Shown here one piece after another: positions 683 through 42,044 of a stretch of DNA of 42,044 nucleotides (position 1 is its first letter; the number at the start of each line of letters is the position of its first letter). Made by a program: the position numbers and the translations under genes. Source of the stretch: Syntrophomonadaceae bacterium (lineage in GTDB: Bacteria > Bacillota > Syntrophomonadia > Syntrophomonadales > DTU052); the NCBI GenBank assembly GCA_012729505.1, contig JAAYDA010000004.1, positions 1 to 42,044 of the forward strand, in the 5' to 3' direction. The notes under the pieces were generated by a model. The model had not been told where the DNA came from, made no database searches, and saw only the letters and a program-made list of their open reading frames with translations.

Positions 683-2032
683 TTGTCCAACTTAGAAATG
701 TGGTTAATTCTTGCCGGCCTGTGTCTGGCCTTCCCGGTTGCCGCTATGGCAACGGCCTGGTTGGTGAGGCCTGCCAAAAAGCAGAGTGATGAAAAACTGA
801 CCTGCTATGAATGTGGTGTGGACACGGTTGGTCCCACCTGGACTCCGTTCAAGGCCAACTATTTCAAGTACGCTCTGGTCTTTCTCTTGTTTGATGTGGA
901 GGTTCTGTTTCTATTTCCCTGGGCCGTTATCTTTTACGAAGTAGTAGTCATACCCATTTATTTGATGGTTATCATGTTTGGCAGTTCCAAGCGAGTTACC
1001 AAGGAGTATGCCGGGATGAAGCTGACCATCTACCTCTTGATCGGGAGCGCTTTATTGCTGCTGGGGCTGCTTTGGCTGTTTGTTATGGGTCAGCAGATTA
1101 CGGGAACCTACACCATGGATATCTTTGAGCTGGCTAAAATCGATTTCCCCGTCATGTACCAGATCATAATATTTGCCATGATGTCGGTGGGCTTTGGAAC
1201 CCTTTTGTCAATGTTCCCTTTCCATGCCTGGTCGCCGGATGGATATGCGGGGGCCCCTACTGCTGTCAGCATGATTCATGCCGGAGTCTTGAAGAAGATT
1301 GGCGGCTATGCTCTGATTAGAGTGGGGCTTTTTATCTTGCCTGTGGGCGCCAAGGCATTGGCGCCGATACTGGTGGTGTTGGGTCTGGCTAATGTGGTGT
1401 ATGCCGCCTTCATATGCTTACGGCAGACCGACCTGAAATATGTGGTGGGCTATTCCAGTGTGAGTCACATGGGATATGTGGTTATCGGGATAGCGGCCCT
1501 TAACATTATAAGTCTCAACGGTGCGGTGGTCATGATGTTTGCTCATGGGGTAATGGCCGCCCTGTTTTTTGCCATGGTAGGTTCGGTTTATGACAAGACC
1601 CACACCCGCCATATTCCGGATCTGGGGGGCCTGGCCCATCAGATGCCGCGGACTGCGGTGGGATTAATGCTGGCCGGCCTGGCCTCGCTGGGATTGCCCG
1701 GAACGGTAAACTTTATTGGTGAATTCACGATATTTGTAGGGGTTTTTCGTGTTTATCCGGCCATTGCGGTTCTGGCCATTTCCGGGATTGTATTTACTGC
1801 GGTTTACGTGCTTCGGGCTCTGGGCAATGTTCTGTTCGGCCCTCGCAAGGAAAACTGGGACCAACTCCAGGACCTGCGGGGGGTGGAGCTTATTCCCCTG
1901 GTGGTTCTCGGTCTGGGCATTCTGATTCCGGGGATTCTGCCCGCCACGATTATGGATATTGTTAACAGCGGAGTGGAGGGGATAGGCCCGGCAACGGCTG
2001 TTCTCAGCCAGGTGTTTGGAGGTGTAAGGTAA
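683..2032 (+). CDS. NuoA-NuoM in-frame fusion (NADH-quinone oxidoreductase remnant)
   Basis: Residues 1 to about 86 are NuoA: N-terminal membrane helix, the loop with YECGVD, and a helix with FDVEVLFLFPWAV. Without a frame break the protein then becomes NuoM from its fifth helix onward (IPIYLM at 90-95), with the conserved lysines of the proton channel at about 204/205 (VLKKIGGY) and 252 (QTDLK) and the motif SVSHMG. Normal NuoA is about 120 and NuoM about 500 residues; nuoB to nuoL and the first part of nuoM are missing. The Glu at residue 86 lies where NuoM has its essential TM5 Glu, so the join falls at a shared F-x-E. The start is TTG at 683 after AAGGAG. Complex I would move protons or sodium at the membrane, but this chimera lacks the electron-carrying subunits, so a working enzyme is unlikely. 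The cause is either a genomic deletion or an assembly join. Confidence 0.85.
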   Translation: MSNLEMWLILAGLCLAFPVAAMATAWLVRPAKKQSDEKLTCYECGVDTVGPTWTPFKANYFKYALVFLLFDVEVLFLFPWAVIFYEVVVIPIYLMVIMFGSSKRVTKEYAGMKLTIYLLIGSALLLLGLLWLFVMGQQITGTYTMDIFELAKIDFPVMYQIIIFAMMSVGFGTLLSMFPFHAWSPDGYAGAPTAVSMIHAGVLKKIGGYALIRVGLFILPVGAKALAPILVVLGLANVVYAAFICLRQTDLKYVVGYSSVSHMGYVVIGIAALNIISLNGAVVMMFAHGVMAALFFAMVGSVYDKTHTRHIPDLGGLAHQMPRTAVGLMLAGLASLGLPGTVNFIGEFTIFVGVFRVYPAIAVLAISGIVFTAVYVLRALGNVLFGPRKENWDQLQDLRGVELIPLVVLGLGILIPGILPATIMDIVNSGVEGIGPATAVLSQVFGGVR

Positions 2033-2689
2033 ATGAATTTAACCCCGCTGGTTGTTGAAATTGCATTGGCCCTGGCAGCCATAATTTTGCTGGTGCTGGG
2101 ATTGATAAACTCAGGACTGGCTAAACGGATAAACGGCGGCGCCGCCGTATTGGCGGCCATGGGAATCCTGGTGCTGGCCTTCATTATGCCGGATTTTGGG
2201 TCTTCTGTGTTCGATGGAACATATATATCTGACGGACTGAGCTGGTTTTTTACGCTCCTGTTCCTGGTCGCTGCGGTATTGGTTCTGACCGGCACTCATC
2301 GCTATGCGGAACAGAACTTTAAGGCCCGCTGGCAGTTTCCGCCTTTGGTACTTCTGGCGATTCTGGGCATGACGGTAATGGTGTCCGGCACTGATCTTCT
2401 GGTTATTTATATCGGCTTGGAGCTGATGACAGTCACCTTCTATTTGCTGTCCGCCTATATGGATGTGGACCTGCGCACTTATGAAGCCGGTCTGAAATAT
2501 TTGGTGCTGGGGGCCTTTTCCTCAGCGGTGCTTCTGATGGGACTTTCATACCTTTATGCCATGACGGGAGGCACCGATATTCGAGCAATCGGTTTGCTTC
2601 TCGATCCGGCCCAGAATTCGGTTATTATCTTGTCTCTGGGGCCGGTGCTGGCTGGATTAGGCTCTAAGCCGGCCCGGATTCAAGCTTAA
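2033..2689 (+). pseudogene. nuoN: NuoN, truncated after about 205 residues
   Basis: It starts directly after the NuoM stop, the usual nuoM-nuoN order. About five to six hydrophobic helices are recognisable, including the NuoN region DLLVIYIGLELMTVTFYLLSAY and the conserved helix with YEAGLKYLVLGAFSSA, whose lysine is part of the antiporter-like channel. Intact NuoN is about 480 residues; this one ends at 218. At LAGLGSKPARIQA the normal continuation (FKIAAVPFHxWxPDVYEGAP) is replaced by unrelated residues and a stop, so the 3' half has been lost and only a terminator follows. Together with the nuoA-nuoM fusion this looks like a broken operon. Confidence 0.85.
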
Positions 2690-2756: not shown

Positions 2757-3332
2757 TTAACGACGAGGATGATTCAGATTGCTGAAGCCTGCTATTCCGT
2801 GAGCGATTTTATCAGCCATGGTAAATACCAGGTTTAATCTGGTGTTTTGCAGTACCAGATGTTCAAGGTAGCCGCCTATATTCACTATCCCGGAAATGTG
2901 CAGATCTCCTACTGATGGCAGTGTTTTACGCAATGCAGTCCCAGGGCAAAGGCTGCCGGGGCGCACATTAATATACCCTACCCTTTCGGCTCTTCCCAAA
3001 CAGGCATCTATAGCAATAACAGCAGGGCTGTTTTTTCGAGCCCTTATTAGCTCAATGGTATCAGAGATGTTTACGGCATGAACCGGTTGGGAAAGAGTGC
3101 CATACACGTCTATTCCCCGGACATCCATTTCTTTTAGACGGGTTCCAACCAAGGGACCCAGAGAATCTCCGGTGGAACGGTCTGTTCCAATGCAAAGGAC
3201 GATAATTTCCCGATGCCACGTATTTAATGCTTCAAACAGGTTAAACAAGGACCTTTGAATTTGGGACGAACATAGTGGGTCACTATACAGAACGGAGATA
3301 CTCTCCATTTGCTCAGCCTTATCAAGCAACAC
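2757..3332 (-). CDS. yyaC: spore protease YyaC family protein
   Basis: The 191-residue protein has the hallmarks of the YyaC/DUF1256 family, a Gpr/hydrogenase-maturation-protease-like fold found in spore formers. Visible are the glycine-rich CIGTDRSTGDSLGPLVG block (about residues 47-63), AIDACLG in the middle, and a C-terminal half with several conserved glycines (GDLHISGIVN). The family is linked to sporulation, with an exact substrate not established. The GTG start at 3332 follows GGGGGAGG at a somewhat long distance; an internal ATG nine codons in (MESISV) is an alternative. It is convergent with the nuo remnant and divergent from ykvI, and a forespore-type promoter may lie upstream. Confidence 0.9.
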   Translation of the reverse strand: MLLDKAEQMESISVLYSDPLCSSQIQRSLFNLFEALNTWHREIIVLCIGTDRSTGDSLGPLVGTRLKEMDVRGIDVYGTLSQPVHAVNISDTIELIRARKNSPAVIAIDACLGRAERVGYINVRPGSLCPGTALRKTLPSVGDLHISGIVNIGGYLEHLVLQNTRLNLVFTMADKIAHGIAGFSNLNHPRR

Positions 3333-4549: not shown

Positions 4550-5953
4550 TTGGGCTTAAAAAACCTGCCTTCAGTAGATGAAGTGTTAAGAGACAGCAGA
4601 ATAGTTGTCAAAGAGGCCCATTGTTCCCGGGATCTGGTGGTAGACGAGATAAGAAGGGTGTTGGGAGGCCTGCGGGAAGAATTTATTCATAAGAATATTT
4701 TAATGGACCGTGAATCGGCCAAGGAGCGAGTGGTCGGAGAGGTTCTGCAGGCCCTGGACCGGCTGCGGACAGGTACTTTGCGCCGGGTTTTGAATGGGAC
4801 CGGGGTAGTATTACATACCAATCTGGGCAGGGCGCCCCTTATGGCCGAAACCCTTGATTATAGCCTGGATTTGGCCCGAAGCTATACAAATCTGGAGCTG
4901 GATCTTGATACCGGTAAGCGAGGATCCCGTTATCAGCATCTTGAATCAATGTTAGTAAAGCTTACCGGTGCTGAGGCGGCATTGGTTGTAAACAATAATG
5001 CGGCGGCAGTATTGCTGGTGCTGAATTCGTTGGCCCAGGACAGAGAAGTAATAGTATCCCGGGGACAGCTGGTAGAAATCGGGGGCTCTTTTCGTATTCC
5101 GGAGATAATGAGCCTCAGTGGCGCAATTCTGGTTGAGGCAGGTACTACCAACAAGACTTATATCAGCGATTATGCCGGAAATATTACGGAGAATACGGCG
5201 GCCTTACTGGCGGTTCATACTTCTAATTACCGGATTGTAGGATTTAGTCAGGAAGTGCCTTTGGATGAGCTGGCTAGTTTAGGCCGGAGCAAAAATCTGC
5301 CGGTAATACAGGACCTGGGCAGCGGCAGTCTCCTGGACTTGTCGCCATGGGGATTGGACTATGAGCCTACCGTAACCGAGTGTCTCCAATTCGGAGTCGA
5401 TGTGGTGACCTTTAGCGGAGACAAGCTTTTGGGCGGGCCCCAGGCGGGTATAATTGTGGGTAAGCGGGCCTTGATTGAAGGCATGAAGAAAAATCATCTG
5501 CTAAGGGCCTTAAGGGTGGATAAAATAACGATTGCGGCCCTGGAAGCCACCTTGAGACACTATATTGACGGGAACCCCCGGCAAACCGTTCCGGTTTTGG
5601 AGATGCTAACCTGTGAAAAAGCTGATTTGCAGAACAAGGCTCATCAGCTATGTTCCCTGATAGAGGATTTTCTTCAGGATTGGGAAGGAGGTTATTCCCT
5701 AAGGGTGGTAGAGACCCAGGATAAAGTAGGCGGAGGGGCCTATCCTCTCCAGGTACTTCCGGGCTTTGGCGTAGAGGTTCAGTTTGGCTTTGATCCTGAA
5801 ATCCTGGCCCGGCAGCTTCGATTGCAGGAACCCGCAGTATTATTGCGAATTCAAGAAGGAGCCCTCCTTTTCAGCGTTCGAACTTTACGAGACGGCGAAG
5901 TTGAAATGATACCGGGGCTATTACTGGAAGCATTGAGGGAGACAGTTAATTGA
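4550..5953 (+). CDS. selA: L-seryl-tRNA(Sec) selenium transferase
   Basis: SelA is the PLP enzyme that turns seryl-tRNA(Sec) into selenocysteyl-tRNA(Sec) using selenophosphate made by SelD. The 467-residue length is normal. Visible are the N-terminal tRNA-binding region, the LNGTGVVLHTNLGRAPL block (about residues 82-98), and FSGDKLLGGPQAG with the PLP lysine at residue 292 (codon at 5423). The start is TTG at 4550 after AAGGGGGGTT. The stop overlaps the selB start by four bases (TTGA), typical selAB coupling. With selB, tRNA-Sec, selD and yedF all within 12 kb the Sec pathway is complete. Confidence 0.97.
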   Translation: MGLKNLPSVDEVLRDSRIVVKEAHCSRDLVVDEIRRVLGGLREEFIHKNILMDRESAKERVVGEVLQALDRLRTGTLRRVLNGTGVVLHTNLGRAPLMAETLDYSLDLARSYTNLELDLDTGKRGSRYQHLESMLVKLTGAEAALVVNNNAAAVLLVLNSLAQDREVIVSRGQLVEIGGSFRIPEIMSLSGAILVEAGTTNKTYISDYAGNITENTAALLAVHTSNYRIVGFSQEVPLDELASLGRSKNLPVIQDLGSGSLLDLSPWGLDYEPTVTECLQFGVDVVTFSGDKLLGGPQAGIIVGKRALIEGMKKNHLLRALRVDKITIAALEATLRHYIDGNPRQTVPVLEMLTCEKADLQNKAHQLCSLIEDFLQDWEGGYSLRVVETQDKVGGGAYPLQVLPGFGVEVQFGFDPEILARQLRLQEPAVLLRIQEGALLFSVRTLRDGEVEMIPGLLLEALRETVN

Positions 5954-7860
5954 AGAGAATTATTATAGGGACAGCAGGCCATATTGATCATGGAAAAACC
6001 GCCTTAGTACGGGCCATTACCGGAATCGATACCGACCGGCTCAAAGAAGAGAAGAAGCGGGGCATATCTATCGAATTGGGGTTCGCTCCCCTTACGCTTC
6101 CTGACGGCCAATTAGCCGGCATAGTAGATGTTCCCGGCCATGAGCGGTTTGTAAGACAGATGCTGGCAGGGGCCTTTGGGATGGATCTGGTTCTGCTTAT
6201 TATTGCAGCCGATGAAGGCATAATGCCACAGACCAGAGAGCACCTGGACATAATTCAGCTGTTGGGCATCAGCCAGGGAATAGTGGTGATTACCAAAAAG
6301 GATCTGGTTGACGAAGAATGGCTGATGATGGTGGAAGATGATATTAAGGAATATCTTAAAGACAGTGAGCTGAAAAATTGGCCGATAATGGCGGTCTCTT
6401 CCGTTACAAAAGAAGGAATAGCTGAGATATTACGGACAATAGAGGAGCTTTCCGTCCAGGTGGAGGAAAAGCCAACGGTTGGTCAGGCCCGACTGCCAAT
6501 TGACCGGATTTTTACCATGACAGGCTTCGGAACGGTAGCAACCGGAACGCTCTGGTCGGGTAAGATCCGGATAAATGATGTCTTGCAGGTGCTGCCTCAG
6601 GATATTTCCGTGCGGGTAAGGACTTTGCATGTGCATAATCACAAGGTGGAAGAAGCCCTGGCCGGGCAGCGAGTGGCGGTGAATCTTCAGGGAGTTGATA
6701 TTAGTGAGATCAGCAGAGGAAGCACTTTGGCATCGCCGGGCTTTCTGAAGCCGACTCATCGGGTCAGTGCCAAGCTAAATCTTCTCTCCTCTGGCCGTCC
6801 GGTAAAAAATTGGACCCGAATCCGCTTCCATCTGGGAACTGACGAATGTCTGGGGCGCTTGGTTTTACTGGAGCATGATGAACTTCAGCCCGGAGAAAAC
6901 GGATATGTGCAGATTGTAATGGAAGAGCCGGTGGTATGTGCGAAAAATGACCGCTTTGTAATTCGGTTTTATTCGCCGGTAACTACCATTGGGGGAGGGG
7001 TAATAATTGACCCTAATCCACCCCGGCAGAAACGATTCAATGAAGCAGTTCTTGAAGAAATAGCCATAAAAGAAGAGGGCGATCTGGAAGAAGTTCTCCT
7101 TCAGGAGATGAATAAACGTCCGGACCGGATATTATCGGTGCAGGAATTAGCTGAGTTCACCAATGCCCAGCAAGATGAAATAAGGGATATTTTAGAGGAC
7201 CTGTCTCGGTCGGGACTGGCTTATAGCTTGACTCAAGAATCGCCTGATCTTTTTATCAGCCGGCCTGGTCTGGAACAGAATAGCCAGACCATCAACAAGG
7301 TGTTAGTAGATTACCTCAAGAAATATCCTTTGCGTCGAGGAATGCCCCGGGAGGAATTGAGGAGCAGATATTTCAAGCAGTACCCGGTCAAGGTCTTTAA
7401 CCCTTTCCTGGCCTTCCTTGAAAGCACGGGCCTGGTATCCTTGGATTCAACCCATATAAAACCCTCGGGCTTTGAGGTAGTGCCGGATGAAGAGACTAAA
7501 AAGGCCTTAAATCGGCTCATGGAAAAATTGCAGCAGAATCCCTTGGCCCCACCGGGATTAAAAGAGCTTCAGGAGGAAGTGAAAGATTTTCGCGGGGAAT
7601 TTGCCGAGCTGATTGCCTACATGGAGGAAACCGACCAAATAGTTAAGGTTGCGGAAAGCACCTATTTTAGCCGTGCCGCTCTTGACATGGCCTGGGAACG
7701 AATAGACGAGCATTTTGCTCATTCCAGCCAGCTGTCTCTGGCTGAGGCTCGTGATTTGTGGGAATCGTCCCGAAAACATACCCTGCCCTTGTTGGAATAC
7801 TTTGATAGGATAAAATATACCAAGAGGATGGGTGATAATCGAATAAAGATGGTGCGATAG
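5950..7860 (+). CDS. selB: selenocysteine-specific elongation factor SelB
   Basis: SelB is a GTPase that carries Sec-tRNA(Sec) to UGA codons and binds the SECIS hairpin in the mRNA. The 636 residues show an EF-Tu-like GTPase: P-loop GHIDHGKT (about 9-16), DVPGHERF switch II, and TKKD for guanine specificity, followed by beta-barrel domains ([25 protein letters not shown]). The C-terminal ~260 residues, rich in short helical repeats, correspond to the four winged-helix domains that bind SECIS RNA. It starts with TTG inside the last codons of selA. A direct client lies downstream: selD with an in-frame TGA. Confidence 0.97.
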
Positions 7861-7923
7861 AGCTTCGCGTAATTGGGATATCTGCCATACAGTCTCCGGA
7901 CCATCAGGAGAGGAGCCGAGAAG

Positions 7924-8628
7924 TTGTTAGAGCTAGAAAACATCAATGTATATTATGGACCGATTCACGCCTTAAAAGAAGTGTCTTTAGTTGTAAACGA
8001 GGGTGAAATAGTGAGTCTTATTGGAGCTAATGGCGCCGGCAAGACGACAACCCTTAAAACTATTTCCGGTTTGCTTCGGGCTCGGTCAGGAACTATGAGA
8101 TTTAAAGGACAAAACATTACGGCCAGTCCTGCTCAAGATATTGTTCGTCTGGGTATTTCCCAGGTTCCGGAGGGAAGAAGGGTCTTTCCGGCTATGTCAG
8201 TGCAAGAGAATCTGGAGATAGGGGCTTTCCTGCGCCGGGATAAAATGGGAATCGCTCAGGATTTCGCCCGGGTTTTCCAACGGTTTCCCCGGCTGGAGGA
8301 AAGGAGCAAGCAATTAGCGGGTACCCTGAGCGGTGGAGAGCAACAGATGCTGGCTATCGGCAGAGCTCTCATGGCTAAACCGACGTTATTGCTCCTTGAT
8401 GAGCCTTCTATGGGGTTGGCCCCCCTGTTGGTCCGAGAAATTTTCGAGATTATTAAGGATATTAACCAGCAGGGCACCACCATTCTTTTGGTTGAACAGA
8501 ATGCGCGTATGGCTTTATCCATTGCCAATCAGGCCTATGTATTGGAGACCGGCAGTATTGTTTTGCAGGGAGAGGCCCATGGCCTGTTGGAGAGTGATCA
8601 GGTAAAAAGGGCCTATTTAGGCGGCTAG
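7924..8628 (+). CDS. livF: branched-chain amino acid-type ABC transporter ATP-binding protein LivF
   Basis: This is the ATPase subunit of a LivFGHMK-type importer. Visible are Walker A GANGAGKTT (about residues 34-42), the signature LSGGEQQ, Walker B LLLLDEPSMGL and the LivF-typical TILLVEQN near residue 185. I chose TTG at 7924 because GGAGAGGAG lies 9 bases upstream and this gives the family length (234 residues); the open frame extends upstream to 7873. The permeases livH and livM, the partner ATPase livG and a binding protein are absent, and the preceding gene is selB. It must pair with subunits encoded elsewhere or be a leftover. Confidence 0.92.
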   Translation: MLELENINVYYGPIHALKEVSLVVNEGEIVSLIGANGAGKTTTLKTISGLLRARSGTMRFKGQNITASPAQDIVRLGISQVPEGRRVFPAMSVQENLEIGAFLRRDKMGIAQDFARVFQRFPRLEERSKQLAGTLSGGEQQMLAIGRALMAKPTLLLLDEPSMGLAPLLVREIFEIIKDINQQGTTILLVEQNARMALSIANQAYVLETGSIVLQGEAHGLLESDQVKRAYLGG

Positions 8629-8646
8629 CAAAAGGAGGGGATTCTG

Positions 8647-9297
8647 GTGAAGGTTAGGGAGAGAATGAGTCGGGATCTGGCAGTAATAAGTCCGGAAACA
8701 TTAATAGTAGATGCCTTTCAGCTGATGCAGGATCGCAATATTCGAAGACTGCCGGTGATGTCTAACCATAAGCTGGTAGGAATAGTTACGATCAAGGATT
8801 TGAACCGGGTAACCCAATCTACGGCTACTAGTCTCAGCATTTTTGAAATAAATTATCTGGTGGCCAAAGCCAGGATAAAAGATATATTGCCCCGAGGTAT
8901 GCAGGTTGCCACCATTGATGCTGGTGCCAATATCGAAAAAGCTGCGGTATTAATGAGAGAGCATGAGGTGGGTGGAATACCGGTTCTCGAAAATGGGGAA
9001 TTGGTGGGAATAATAACAGAAACGGACATCTTTGATGCCTTTATAGATATTTTGGGGGTCAATCGTATCGGAACACGTATCGATATGGAGGTTGATGAAA
9101 AAGTAGGCTCGGTGGCGGCGGTTACCGGAATAATCGCTGAACATGGTATCAGTATTGAAAATATAGTGTTAGTGGAAAAGGAAGATACCTCCACCTACGA
9201 TCTGATTTTGCGCATTGATACAACTCAGGCTGATGATATCGTTAATTCCCTGAAAGAAAAGGGCTTTAAAATTATTGAGGTAATTACTCAGCTTTGA
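8647..9297 (+). CDS. CBS-CBS-ACT domain protein (AcuB-like)
   Basis: The 216 residues contain two CBS domains (about 7-60, with RRLPVMSNHKLVGIVT; and 78-135, with GGIPVLENGELVGIITETD) and a C-terminal ACT domain (about 143-214). The combination is found in AcuB-type proteins, which sense adenine nucleotides or amino acids; their target in Clostridia is not established. The start is GTG at 8647 after AAAGGAGGGG. It lies 18 bases after livF and probably shares its mRNA. Confidence 0.88.
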   Translation: MKVRERMSRDLAVISPETLIVDAFQLMQDRNIRRLPVMSNHKLVGIVTIKDLNRVTQSTATSLSIFEINYLVAKARIKDILPRGMQVATIDAGANIEKAAVLMREHEVGGIPVLENGELVGIITETDIFDAFIDILGVNRIGTRIDMEVDEKVGSVAAVTGIIAEHGISIENIVLVEKEDTSTYDLILRIDTTQADDIVNSLKEKGFKIIEVITQL

Positions 9298-9347
9298 TAT
9301 TGTCAATGATCAGGAAGAATTTCTTTGTCGGGACTATCGTAAGGCCC

Positions 9348-9551
9348 GGGGTTAATTCCACTTGCTCCCGGAATGAGAACCGGCAATCTCAGCTGCTCAG
9401 GTTCGGCCTCCGAGCAGCACACCGCCAATTCGCCCTCCATGGCTCAGGAGGCGGACTCGGGACCTCCTGTCCCTCGGCTGCTCTTCCGCCTCAACTTCGC
9501 AGGAGTTTACCCGATTCTCATCCCCACGGTCGCTGCATTGAAATTAACCCC
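9348..9551 (+). repeat. ~204-bp element with 13-bp terminal inverted repeats, copy A (MITE-like)
   Basis: The ends are GGGGTTAATTCCA (9348-9360) and TGAAATTAACCCC (9539-9551), inverted repeats matching at 12 of 13 positions. The interior is GC-rich and has no convincing gene. Almost the whole element occurs again in opposite orientation at 30257-30459 with roughly 85% identity by eye, including a shared block around the inner CCTCCATGGCTCA. No transposase is encoded and I saw no clear target-site duplication. It lies between the CBS-ACT gene and the tRNA-Sec promoter. Confidence 0.85.
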
Positions 9552-9653
9552 GTGTCTCCTCACCCGGTTTCCGGATTGTGGGGATGACATTTTCCCTGAC
9601 GACTTATACAATGATAATAATACTGATAAACAACATTTCATCAGCTTTGATAT

Positions 9654-9682
9654 TTGCTATATTTGCAGAATTCCTATATTAT
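9654..9682 (+). promoter_or_regulatory. sigma-A-type promoter of tRNA-Sec
   Basis: TTGCTA (9654-9659), a 17-base spacer, and TATTAT (9677-9682). The predicted start point is about 22 bases before the mature tRNA 5' end, a normal distance for a tRNA gene. No other promoter is needed for this isolated RNA gene. Confidence 0.65.
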
Positions 9683-9711
9683 AAATCAGGATATTTATAA
9701 GAGGCCATCGA

Positions 9712-9809
9712 GGAGGCGGATCGGTCCTGGTGGGCCGCCTGGACTTCAAATCCAGTCGAGCGGTAGCGATCCTGCCGTTGGTGAGTTCGATTCTCACACG
9801 CTTCCGCCA
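9712..9809 (+). tRNA. selC: tRNA-Sec (anticodon TCA)
   Basis: The 98-base gene has all features that set bacterial tRNA-Sec apart. The anticodon loop CTTCAAA on a 5-bp stem reads UGA. The D stem has 6 bp (CGGTCC with GGGCCG) and a 4-base loop, and the variable arm is long (CGGTAG paired with CTGCCG). The T arm is GTGAG-TTCGATT-CTCAC, and discriminator G with CCA is encoded at 9806-9809. The acceptor arm pairs as GGAGGCGG with ACGCTTCC, with one G-T wobble and a mismatch at the eighth pair. It serves SelA/SelB encoded upstream and decodes the TGA in selD. Confidence 0.97.
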
Positions 9810-9922
9810 ATTTTATCGGCGCTTTAATCCAGTCGGCAGTCACCACCAATATAAACACCCAACAAAGAATGGGCGGGTTACGATTGCCGGCAAAATGAGG
9901 CAGAATTTTAACTGGGAAAAGA

Positions 9923-10237
9923 CTATTTATTCGGCACACTCTTTTTGATAAAACCTTCAATAAAATCTGTTCCGGCATATCCAATTGCCATTAGGGTAAT
10001 TAATAATTGTTTGTCTAATGCTTCCCCGTACAAGGAAATTGCGCCTAGAACTCCAGCAACAGAACCTATTATGATGCTAATTAAAAATTGTTTTGAATCA
10101 AACCAATCCTTTAGTTGGACATCCTTCTCGACTTTATCATTACCCTTTTTTAGTCCCACTATTACTCTTAAACATTGACCGGCAGCACCTAAAAAGGCAC
10201 CTAAAAGCATGAAAGCCAAAATTTGACAAACGTCCAT
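9923..10237 (-). CDS. small membrane protein, unknown function
   Basis: The 104 residues contain three hydrophobic segments: about 5-28 (FMLLGAFLGAAG), 50-70 (FLISIIIGSVAGVLGAI) and 78-95 (LLITLMAIGYAGTDFIEGF), with a charged linker between the first two. ATG at 10237 follows AAAGGGG. The size, helix layout and the AGTDFIEGF ending resemble small phage- or element-associated membrane proteins, but I cannot name a family. It stands alone on the minus strand next to tRNA-Sec, with no partner genes, so it may be a leftover of an integrated element. Confidence 0.65.
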   Translation of the reverse strand: MDVCQILAFMLLGAFLGAAGQCLRVIVGLKKGNDKVEKDVQLKDWFDSKQFLISIIIGSVAGVLGAISLYGEALDKQLLITLMAIGYAGTDFIEGFIKKSVPNK

Positions 10238-10670
10238 CTCGGCATCCCCTTTCTTTAGAAAATCGTTTACAATAATAGATTATTTCTACAAATGCGGAGG
10301 CGGCACCTGCACCGATGGTTAAAATGGTTGCGGAGTATTTGGAGGAACGGCTGGAATGGTATCTTAATATTTTGGGTGTATAATTTAGTACCGATTCTGA
10401 TAAAAGATCTTGCAATCAGGGTTCTTTGTCTTATGCCCGATAATATGCTAAAATCCTTTAAATGCGTAGTGAACAGATTGTAAGCCGGAGTGATTCGATG
10501 GAGTTAATTGGTACATATCTCCAATTTACAGGTGCTTCGGGGCATTGCCAATATATAGTCAATGCCTTTTTTATTCGGAAGAGCTTTTCTACATTAGCAA
10601 GGTAAAACAGCCGGACAGGATATGGGCCCGATAATAAAAGCAAGTATTGATACTACAGGGAGGAAACCCC
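10238..10670. other. 433-base stretch with no convincing gene
   Basis: The only item of note is a 22-codon frame at 10315-10383 (ATG; product includes AEYLEERLEWYLNILGV, amphipathic and acidic). A purine-rich GGAGGCGG lies about 13 bases upstream, too far to be a good ribosome site. The rest has scattered short frames without a Shine-Dalgarno. I see no terminator with a T-run and no clear promoter for the gene at 10671. Confidence 0.35.
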
Positions 10671-11024
10671 ATGACCTTTGATAAATTCGCGGCCATGCTC
10701 GATTATGTTGTAGACAGCATTCCCCAGCGTTTTCTCTATAACCTGAACGGGGGTTTTAATCTTCGGAAGGAGAAAAAGCGGGAGGGGGACTACTACATAA
10801 TGGGCGAATACATTGAAGATGGTTTTGGTGGTTGTATAATCATGTTTTATTATGGTTCTTTTGTAGAGGTGTTAGAGGGAGAAGCTGAGGATTGTTGGGC
10901 GGAGGAGATTGCAGACACGGTGTTTCATGAAATGCAGCATCATCTGGAGTCATTGGCCGGGCGGGAGGATTTAGCCAGAAAAGAGATAGAGGAATTGGCT
11001 AAGGCTCTTAAAAGGGGAGAATGA
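10671..11024 (+). CDS. small zincin-type metallopeptidase family protein
   Basis: The protein is 117 residues. HEMQHH (His86, Glu87, His90) is a zinc-metallopeptidase HExxH motif near the C-terminal end, preceded by a core with GEYIEDGFGGCIIMFYYGSF. This layout matches the small 'metallopeptidase family' proteins of about 110-130 residues that are widespread in bacteria and have no proven substrate. I use ATG at 10671, 5 bases after AGGGAGGAAA; an upstream ATG at 10647 would start before the ribosome site. A DUF554 gene follows 64 bases later. Confidence 0.8.
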   Translation: MTFDKFAAMLDYVVDSIPQRFLYNLNGGFNLRKEKKREGDYYIMGEYIEDGFGGCIIMFYYGSFVEVLEGEAEDCWAEEIADTVFHEMQHHLESLAGREDLARKEIEELAKALKRGE

Positions 11025-11088
11025 GCCCCGGAAGTCCCGGGGCGTGTGGTTGGGGTGGCGGGAGCTTTTGTGGTTAGGAGAGGACGCG

Positions 11089-11769
11089 TTGTTAGGTTCA
11101 GTTGTTAATTTCCTGGCGATTGCTGTGGGTGGAGGAATAGGCCTGATATTCAAAAAGGGTTTGCCTGAAAAGATCGGTGAAACGGTCATGTATGGGCTGG
11201 CTTTATGTGTTTTATATATTGGGTTTAGTGGAGCTTTATCCGGAGAGAATATTTTGATCGTGGTTTTATCCATGGCAATCGGAGCTGTTTTAGGGGAATG
11301 GATCGATCTGGATAGGTATATTATTTCTTTAGGTAATTGGTTGGAGGCCAGGTATAAGGGCCAGGAGGGAACGACCTCCATTTCCCAAGGCTTTGTGACG
11401 GCCAGCTTGCTTTTCTGTGTGGGGGCCCTGGCCATTGTCGGGTCGTTACAAAGCGGATTGACCGGAAATCATGAAACGCTGTTCACCAAGTCGTTAATTG
11501 ATGGGATTGCGGCAATAATACTTGCATCCAGCTTAGGGGCCGGGGTTATATTGTCGGCGGGAGCTGTGTTGATCTACCAAGGGACCATAACCCTTTTAGC
11601 TCAGGTTCTTTCACCTTATTTGACTCCTGTGGTCATCAATGAAATGACCTGTGTAGGCTCACTGATAATAATCGGCTTGGCTCTGAATATGCTGAAGATT
11701 ACCAGGCTCAAAGTGATGAATCTGGTGCCGGCCATCTTTTTTCCCATTATTTTGTGTCTGTTCATGTAA
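11089..11769 (+). CDS. DUF554 family membrane protein (YdfK-like)
   Basis: The 226-residue protein begins MLGSVVNFLAIAVGGGIGLIF, the typical DUF554 start, and has about six to seven hydrophobic helices. It contains the conserved GAVLGEWIDLD segment and, in the middle, FVTASLLFCVGALAIVGSLQSG, all family signatures. The function is unknown; transport is suggested for the family. TTG at 11089 follows GGAGAGG and restores family length; the frame continues upstream to 11044 without a ribosome site. A terminator lies about 50 bases after the stop. Confidence 0.85.
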   Translation: MLGSVVNFLAIAVGGGIGLIFKKGLPEKIGETVMYGLALCVLYIGFSGALSGENILIVVLSMAIGAVLGEWIDLDRYIISLGNWLEARYKGQEGTTSISQGFVTASLLFCVGALAIVGSLQSGLTGNHETLFTKSLIDGIAAIILASSLGAGVILSAGAVLIYQGTITLLAQVLSPYLTPVVINEMTCVGSLIIIGLALNMLKITRLKVMNLVPAIFFPIILCLFM

Positions 11770-14054: not shown

Positions 14055-15104
14055 ATGACTTCAGATAAGGTCAGGCTCACGGGAATGGTTAAAGCTGCCG
14101 GTTGAGCGGCGAAACTGGGTCCGGGGACCCTTAATAAGCTGCTGGATGGAATCAGGATGCCTGATGATCCCCGATTGCTGGTGGGATTTGACAAGGCCGA
14201 TGATGCCGGTGTTTTCAGAATATCGGATCAAATGGCCTTGATTCAAACTGTGGATTTTTTTACTCCCATGGTTGACGATCCCTATTCATTTGGACAGATT
14301 GCGGCTGCCAATGCATTAAGTGATGTTTATGCCATGGGGGGCAAGCCCCTGACGGCTATGAATATCGTCTGCTTTCCCGAGTGCCTGGATGTGGGCATAC
14401 TGAGAGAGATCATTAAAGGCGGACTGTCTAAAATTGAGGAAGCCGGGGCGGTTTTGGTAGGTGGTCATACTATTGATGACGCTGAACCCAAGTATGGCCT
14501 GTCAGTTACGGGTGTTATTGATCCCCAGAGGGTAACAACTAACCATGGGGCCCGGGAGGAAGATTGCCTGTATATGACAAAATCTCTGGGGACCGGAATC
14601 ATAGCTACTGCTATAAAAGGGGAGATGGCAGATGAAAATCAGATCGCGGCGGTTATCTCCTCGATGACTGCTTTGAACGACCGGGCCCGAGATGCCATGA
14701 TGGAGGTCGGTGTAAACGCCTGTACTGATGTTACCGGCTTTGGTCTGCTGGGTCATGCCATGGAAATGGCGGAAGGCAGCGGAGTGGGGATAGAATTATG
14801 GTCTGATTCTCTGGGCTTTCTGCCGGGGGCTATGGAGCTGGCCAATATGGGGCTGATCCCGGGCGGAGCTTATTCCAATCGGGATTATTTGCAGGATAGG
14901 GTTGAGGTTGAAGAGGGCTTGGATTTGACTTGCCTGGATATAATGTATTCTCCTGAGACATCTGGGGGACTGTTGATATCGGTGGATCAGATGAGCAGTC
15001 GGCGATTGGAGGAAGAATTCGTCAGGCAGGGGGTAGTTTTTTTTAAGGTGGGCCGGGTAAAGGGGGCGAAACCCGGAAGAATTCGAGTTTTAAGGAGGGA
15101 ATAG
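14055..15104 (+). CDS. selD: selenide, water dikinase SelD, itself a selenoprotein (TGA = Sec17)
   Basis: SelD makes selenophosphate from selenide and ATP for SelA. The frame from ATG 14055 runs MTSDKVRLTGMVKAAG, meets TGA at 14103-14105 and continues in the same frame to 15104 (349 residues with Sec). Sec17 falls on the catalytic Cys/Sec position of the family (Cys17 in E. coli), and the conserved Lys20 follows (U-A-A-K). Downstream are the glycine-rich motif and metal-binding Asp (VDFFTPMVDDPY), the Asn/Asp block AANALSDVYAMGGKP, and GGHTIDDAEPKYG. A hairpin able to act as SECIS lies right after the TGA. The ribosome site is AAAGGGGGCG. Ordinary gene calling would give a truncated protein from 14157 without the active site. 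Confidence 0.96.
14103..14141 (+). promoter_or_regulatory. bacterial SECIS element in selD mRNA
   Basis: The Sec codon TGA (14103-14105) is followed by a hairpin whose apical stem is GGGTC (14117-14121) with GACCC (14126-14130). The small G-rich loop lies about 16 bases after the TGA, within the window SelB needs. A longer lower stem (AGC near the TGA with GCT near 14138) is possible. Confidence 0.7.
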
Positions 15105-41904: not shown

Positions 41905-41938
41905 GAATAGCCCGGTCCGGCTTTATCCGATGACTAAC

Positions 41939-42044
41939 CCGCCCTAAGACCCCCGCCACCTTTAGAGGCAGGTGCCCAAGGGCGGCTAAGTCCCTGGATC
42001 CGTGCGACTAAGATTCAGATGGAGTTAAAGCACCACCTGAATCA
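41939..42044. repeat. palindromic repeat, copy 2, running to the window edge
   Basis: Module 1: CCGCCCT (41939-41945) pairs with AGGGCGG (41979-41985), with a nested CACCT/AGGTG. Module 2: CTAAGTCCCTGGAT (41986-41999), which also appears as TTAGTCCCTGGAT after copy 1. Module 3: GATTCAGATGG (42012-42022) pairs with CCACCTGAATC (42033-42043), the same palindrome as at 24976-25007. It follows the Memo gene and may also end its message. Confidence 0.7.

Follow-up and report, generated by a model that had tools for sequence, protein, structure and literature searches.

Near its left end, on the plus strand, the window (the whole stretch of 42,044 nucleotides analyzed) carries a single uninterrupted open reading frame at 683-2032, which starts at TTG, is preceded by a plausible ribosome-binding site (AAGGAG), contains no internal stop and encodes a protein of 449 aa. 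The domain content of the protein is composite: Oxidored_q4 (NuoA/ND3, PF00507) covers residues 20-99 (E = 1.4e-20), Proton_antipo_M (PF00361) spans residues 82-372 (E = 8.8e-64), and residues 68-432 are recognized as NuoM by NCBIfam TIGR01972 with 342 bits. The NuoA plus NuoM structure is far above chance, and the in-frame fusion of the two genes reported in the first-pass annotation is borne out; random joining alone would keep the frame in one case out of three. No promoter-like site was detected upstream of the chimera on the plus strand by a consensus scan. The TIGR01972 cut-off being passed, annotation pipelines will label this ORF 'NADH-quinone oxidoreductase subunit M'.

Intact complex I operons of related bacteria consist of 11 genes in the order A-B-C-D-H-I-J-K-L-M-N (in Syntrophomonas zehnderi, genes up to nuoM were confirmed by Pfam, nuoN by position and alignment). 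Codons 1-82 of the chimera (683-928), aligned with 25 relatives, correspond to the 5' part of nuoA, and encode TM1, the Cys loop and TM2 up to FPWAV. This segment is about 58-70% identical to NuoA (ND3) of the 11-subunit complex I of Syntrophomonadales, with which it shares the ECGVDT loop and the TM2 motif FDVE, but lacks the last third of the protein (VKFxxLGLFAFIEM..., TM3), and is hence not a full three-TM Oxidored_q4 protein. The 3' part of nuoM (932-2032) runs from FYEVVVIP, in the second half of TM5, to the stop codon, as indicated by TIGR01972 and by alignment to 3rko_M, and is 70-76% identical to NuoM (ND4) of Syntrophomonadales operons down to the C-terminus. The first 140 residues or so of NuoM (TM1-4 and half of TM5) are gone, with NuoA in their place; the chimera matches positions 122-480 of the 486 of TIGR01972 only, and does not feature the 14 TMs of a full-length NuoM. 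A truncated nuoN (2033-2689, plus strand; NF004440, E = 4e-39 over positions 2-212 of 477) begins directly after the nuoM stop. The gene is cut to 212 of about 480 codons, homology to relatives ending after LAGLG(F>S)K at about nt 2668, and is closed by 6 foreign codons and a stop. This truncation was missed in the first-pass annotation.

The alignment to Syntrophomonadales relatives places the end of NuoA homology at V82 of FPWAV (nt 928). Across the join position, NuoA relatives read FLFPWAVKFxxLGLFAF and NuoM relatives DLFIFFLFYEVVVIPIYL (DLFIFF(L/M)FYEVVVIPIYL), while the window reads FLFPWAVIFYEVVVIPIYL. NuoM begins at the codon before FYE, or one base into that codon. Comparison of codons with those of relatives suggests that the join lies within codon 83 (ATC, 929-931, plus strand): this Ile codon may be made up by the A of a NuoA Lys codon (AAA/AAG) and the TC of a NuoM Leu codon (CTC), no mutation being needed, and the break point is accordingly set at about 929/930. 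This is the upstream limit of the range first assigned to the join (930-960). NuoA does not run into FYE, as had been proposed, (I)FYEVVVIPIYL being NuoM sequence. An aromatic-x-Glu motif common to the two proteins had been invoked to guide the deletion. The motif was found at the join position in none of the 25 related NuoA proteins, and it would follow that no shared motif guided the event; in the sequences compared, identity between nuoA and nuoM at the join is limited to a few bases. What stands of that proposal is a nuoA-nuoM join of the deletion type, since a deletion at a shared motif is ruled out by NuoA relatives lacking FYE. Between the two parts, as first noted, nuoB-nuoL are missing, eight genes in all, together with the beginning of nuoM; the lost stretch measures 7.04-7.49 kb in relatives (median 7.11 kb, 25 operons).

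In the alignment to 3rko_M, residue E86 (nt 938-940) falls on E144 of E. coli NuoM, and its identification with this Glu is upheld. It is NuoM's own residue, kept because the NuoM part starts three residues before it. In the same alignment, H262 and H288 of the chimera correspond to H322 and H348. E144 and K234 are ion-paired in E. coli NuoM (PMC9271201). The TM7 lysine K234 is replaced by L174 in the chimera. Every NuoM read of the Syntrophomonadales or Desulfosporosinus type carries Leu or Ile at this position, with the TM5 Glu kept, and absence of the TM7 lysine is therefore a clade trait, a property of intact operons; S. zehnderi NuoL and NuoN retain their lysines (the S. zehnderi NuoM resides at 9605-11110 of locus L059). 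Changes are found in the chimera at 8 out of 168 columns invariant in NuoM relatives, all conservative; the next most divergent intact sequences have 6-7. The NuoA part features two radical changes, R55P and a K in TM2 where relatives have L or I.

The genes on either side of the nuo fragment are unrelated to it. Positions 1-127 are 100% identical to the reverse complement of residues 1-127 of another contig of the genome (C44), a terminal k-mer overlap beyond which C44 carries bactofilin, M23 peptidase, DUF4446 and the parAB-gidAB region. On the other side lies yyaC (DUF1256; 2757-3332, minus strand; PF06866, E = 4.8e-57), which by synteny is the right-hand neighbour of the site, conserved beside bactofilin in relatives. 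The two genes face each other in 9 of the 9 relatives carrying both on the fetched locus. In four same-family genomes, all without nuo genes, they lie 112-133 nt apart; the distance is 8-109 nt in three other genomes of the order, and 611-752 nt in two relatives, in which the gap is filled with other sequence. In the source genome the gap measures 2,832 nt against the 112-133 nt of the family, which makes the nuo fragment an insertion of about 2.7 kb relative to close relatives, and not what is left of an operon in its normal location. A usual nuo locus is ruled out because the nuo operons of relatives have other flanking genes; the foreign location had also escaped the first-pass annotation. 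No close sister genome carries the insert intact. A stretch of about 550 nt (128-682) separates the C44 overlap from nuoA. It gave no blastn or tblastx match in the fetched loci, the stretch 1-682 matching only via the C44 overlap, and no family in Pfam or NCBIfam matches the ORF it contains (446-658, 70 aa). C44 (locus L137) carries two perfect copies of a parS-like site, TGTTTCACGTGAAACA, at 148 and 3738; one copy separates bactofilin from the nuo insert, the other is beside parB.

Other features of the window include selA, selB and tRNA-Sec genes, found at 4550-9805, and a SelD gene (14064-15104) in which an in-frame TGA precedes the ATG-started ORF (AAG-U-AAKLGPGTL); SelD itself is on this account probably a selenoprotein. 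The right end of the window (41922-42044) is occupied by a dispersed hairpin-forming repeat, about 123-136 nt long, present in around 40 copies in the source genome. The repeat has a DNA fold z of -6.7 and no Rfam match, was not found in the examined genomes of the same family, and gives 6-10 matches in each examined genome of another genus of the order. It is possibly a non-autonomous mobile element.

The genome, made up of 80 contigs and rated 100% complete, was searched for nuoA/nuoM, nuoH and nuoB. Neither a second nuoA or nuoM, nor a nuoB or nuoH of the complex I type were found in the 80 contigs. The only NuoH-family match sits in a group-4-hydrogenase-type cluster (contig C70), and NuoB-family matches are limited to the same contig and to a 361-aa protein on contig C68. 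The absence of nuoB and nuoH of the complex I kind, for which a search of the genome had been advised, is thus supported, and an intact nuoA-N operon, the finding that would have spoken against a fusion, did not emerge from any of these searches. With nuoB-nuoL absent between its two parts, the locus is not a functional complex I (NDH-1) operon. A NuoM-grade match was missing in four genomes of the same family, and a NuoA-NuoM fusion in the 63 genomes of the class; none was found in GTDB contigs, a scan which may omit the window's own or very near records, and nothing was found in the literature on such a fusion.

The base composition of the nuo pieces sets them apart from the host. GC3 is 0.606 vs. 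0.495 +/- 0.039 in host genes, above all the 52 tested, a value only suggestive as a sign of transfer. In trees, the NuoM of the chimera falls outside the group formed by all other Syntrophomonadales NuoM sequences, on a long terminal branch. Composition and branching are both compatible with import from an unsampled relative. The NuoM/PurA distance ratio is 0.69 for the window and 0.53-0.57 in other pairs, denoting mild acceleration. No stops and no frameshifts or indels were found over the 661 codons of the nuo pieces; the probability of frames as clean as these after 2% neutral drift is about 0.005, if indels are assumed to occur at 10% of the rate of substitutions. Since reading frames are still clean, breakage should be recent, or selection may not have ended: open frames and conservative changes at invariant NuoM sites leave room for selection until very recently, or even now.

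The whole is best explained (probability around 0.82) by a recently broken, probably imported, non-functional remnant of a complex I operon. As in other relics, genes are truncated, their partners lost, and the arrangement is not common to relatives. Of the 11-gene operon nuoABCDHIJKLMN, most would be gone, and only nuoA', 'nuoM and nuoN' would survive, within some 2.7 kb. A single deletion, about 7.1 kb long, may have joined nuoA codon 82 to the nuoM codon before FYE, the frame being kept by chance, and a second break would have taken the 3' half of nuoN. Horizontal transfer, with a relative of Syntrophomonadales as donor, probably brought the piece to the bactofilin-yyaC site, intact or already reduced. 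The remnant, which may still be translated, is predicted to make no complex I, having neither a quinone module nor an intact partner subunit. Pseudogenes fused in frame by a deletion inside an operon form a general class, not a database family. As in members of this class, two operon ends are joined here, a neighbour gene is truncated, and relatives lack the fusion; differences are that the frame of the chimera happens to stay open, and that the remnant lies at an insertion site and not at the usual operon position.

The same relic could have arisen with no horizontal import, from an operon inherited vertically in the family, relocated to this site, and then decayed. This variant is compatible with the core of the preferred explanation, and has a real but minor share of the probability. 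The NuoM tree would fit it, as a vertical copy could be sister to other Syntrophomonadales in the same way; the high GC3 relative to the 52 host genes, and the four genomes of the family in which nuo genes are missing and the site is empty, argue against it.

That the chimera is a working protein, in which the two NuoA helices replace TM1-4 and half of TM5 of NuoM, seems very unlikely. Such a protein would be a stand-alone or hydrogenase-associated cation/proton antiporter subunit, and expression as a minimal antiporter-like membrane protein in a cell without complex I is judged just as improbable. The open frame and the AAGGAG site would suit this role, as would the equivalents of E144, H322 and H348, all kept, the few and conservative changes at invariant NuoM sites, and a helix parity which could be preserved. 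Yet nuoB-L are missing and nuoN is cut; there is no complex to join; TM1-4 and the first half of TM5 are lost, R55P and the TM2 lysine of the NuoA part are radical, no consensus promoter is found upstream, and no other genome of the class has the chimera. AlphaFold gives pLDDT 57 and pTM 0.50, whereas an intact NuoM of similar depth reaches 72 and 0.79; this is weak evidence, as the five models of the control span 50 to 72. The chimeric antiporter-like protein first envisaged gains no positive evidence, with its partners gone, nuoN cut, a foreign insertion as its seat and no counterpart in the class.

The other option initially put forward, that the assembly wrongly joined two places of a nuo operon, has an equally slim chance of being correct. 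In its favour, the genome is a draft in 80 contigs, and a contig end is only 0.9 kb away from the join. Against it, the overlap between contig ends is exactly 127 nt at the window/C44 end and 126-127 nt at an end of C75, and for this reason the assembly graph probably used k=127. For a mis-join to arise within a contig, the two places would have to share about that length of sequence; nuoA and nuoM have no common stretch approaching it, and the join does not sit on a repeat as long as the assembly k-mer or longer. In addition, nuoN is cut independently, and nuoH and nuoB are on no other contig, where a mis-join should have left them. Derivation of the chimera from the antiporter-like subunits encoded by the Mrp-like antiporter cluster (C75) and the group-4-hydrogenase-type cluster (C70) of the same genome is ruled out, these homologous proteins having intact long frames and being only 24-28% identical to it.

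Were the chimera functional, and only then, it would bear on how antiporter-like subunits arise, as a case of a transporter newly created by a single in-frame deletion in an operon. A NuoM devoid of the TM7 lysine across the clade may matter more than the chimera, and may merit a study of its own. Read as a relic, the fragment would testify that complex I was lost recently in a family in which the other members examined show none, and could help to date that loss.
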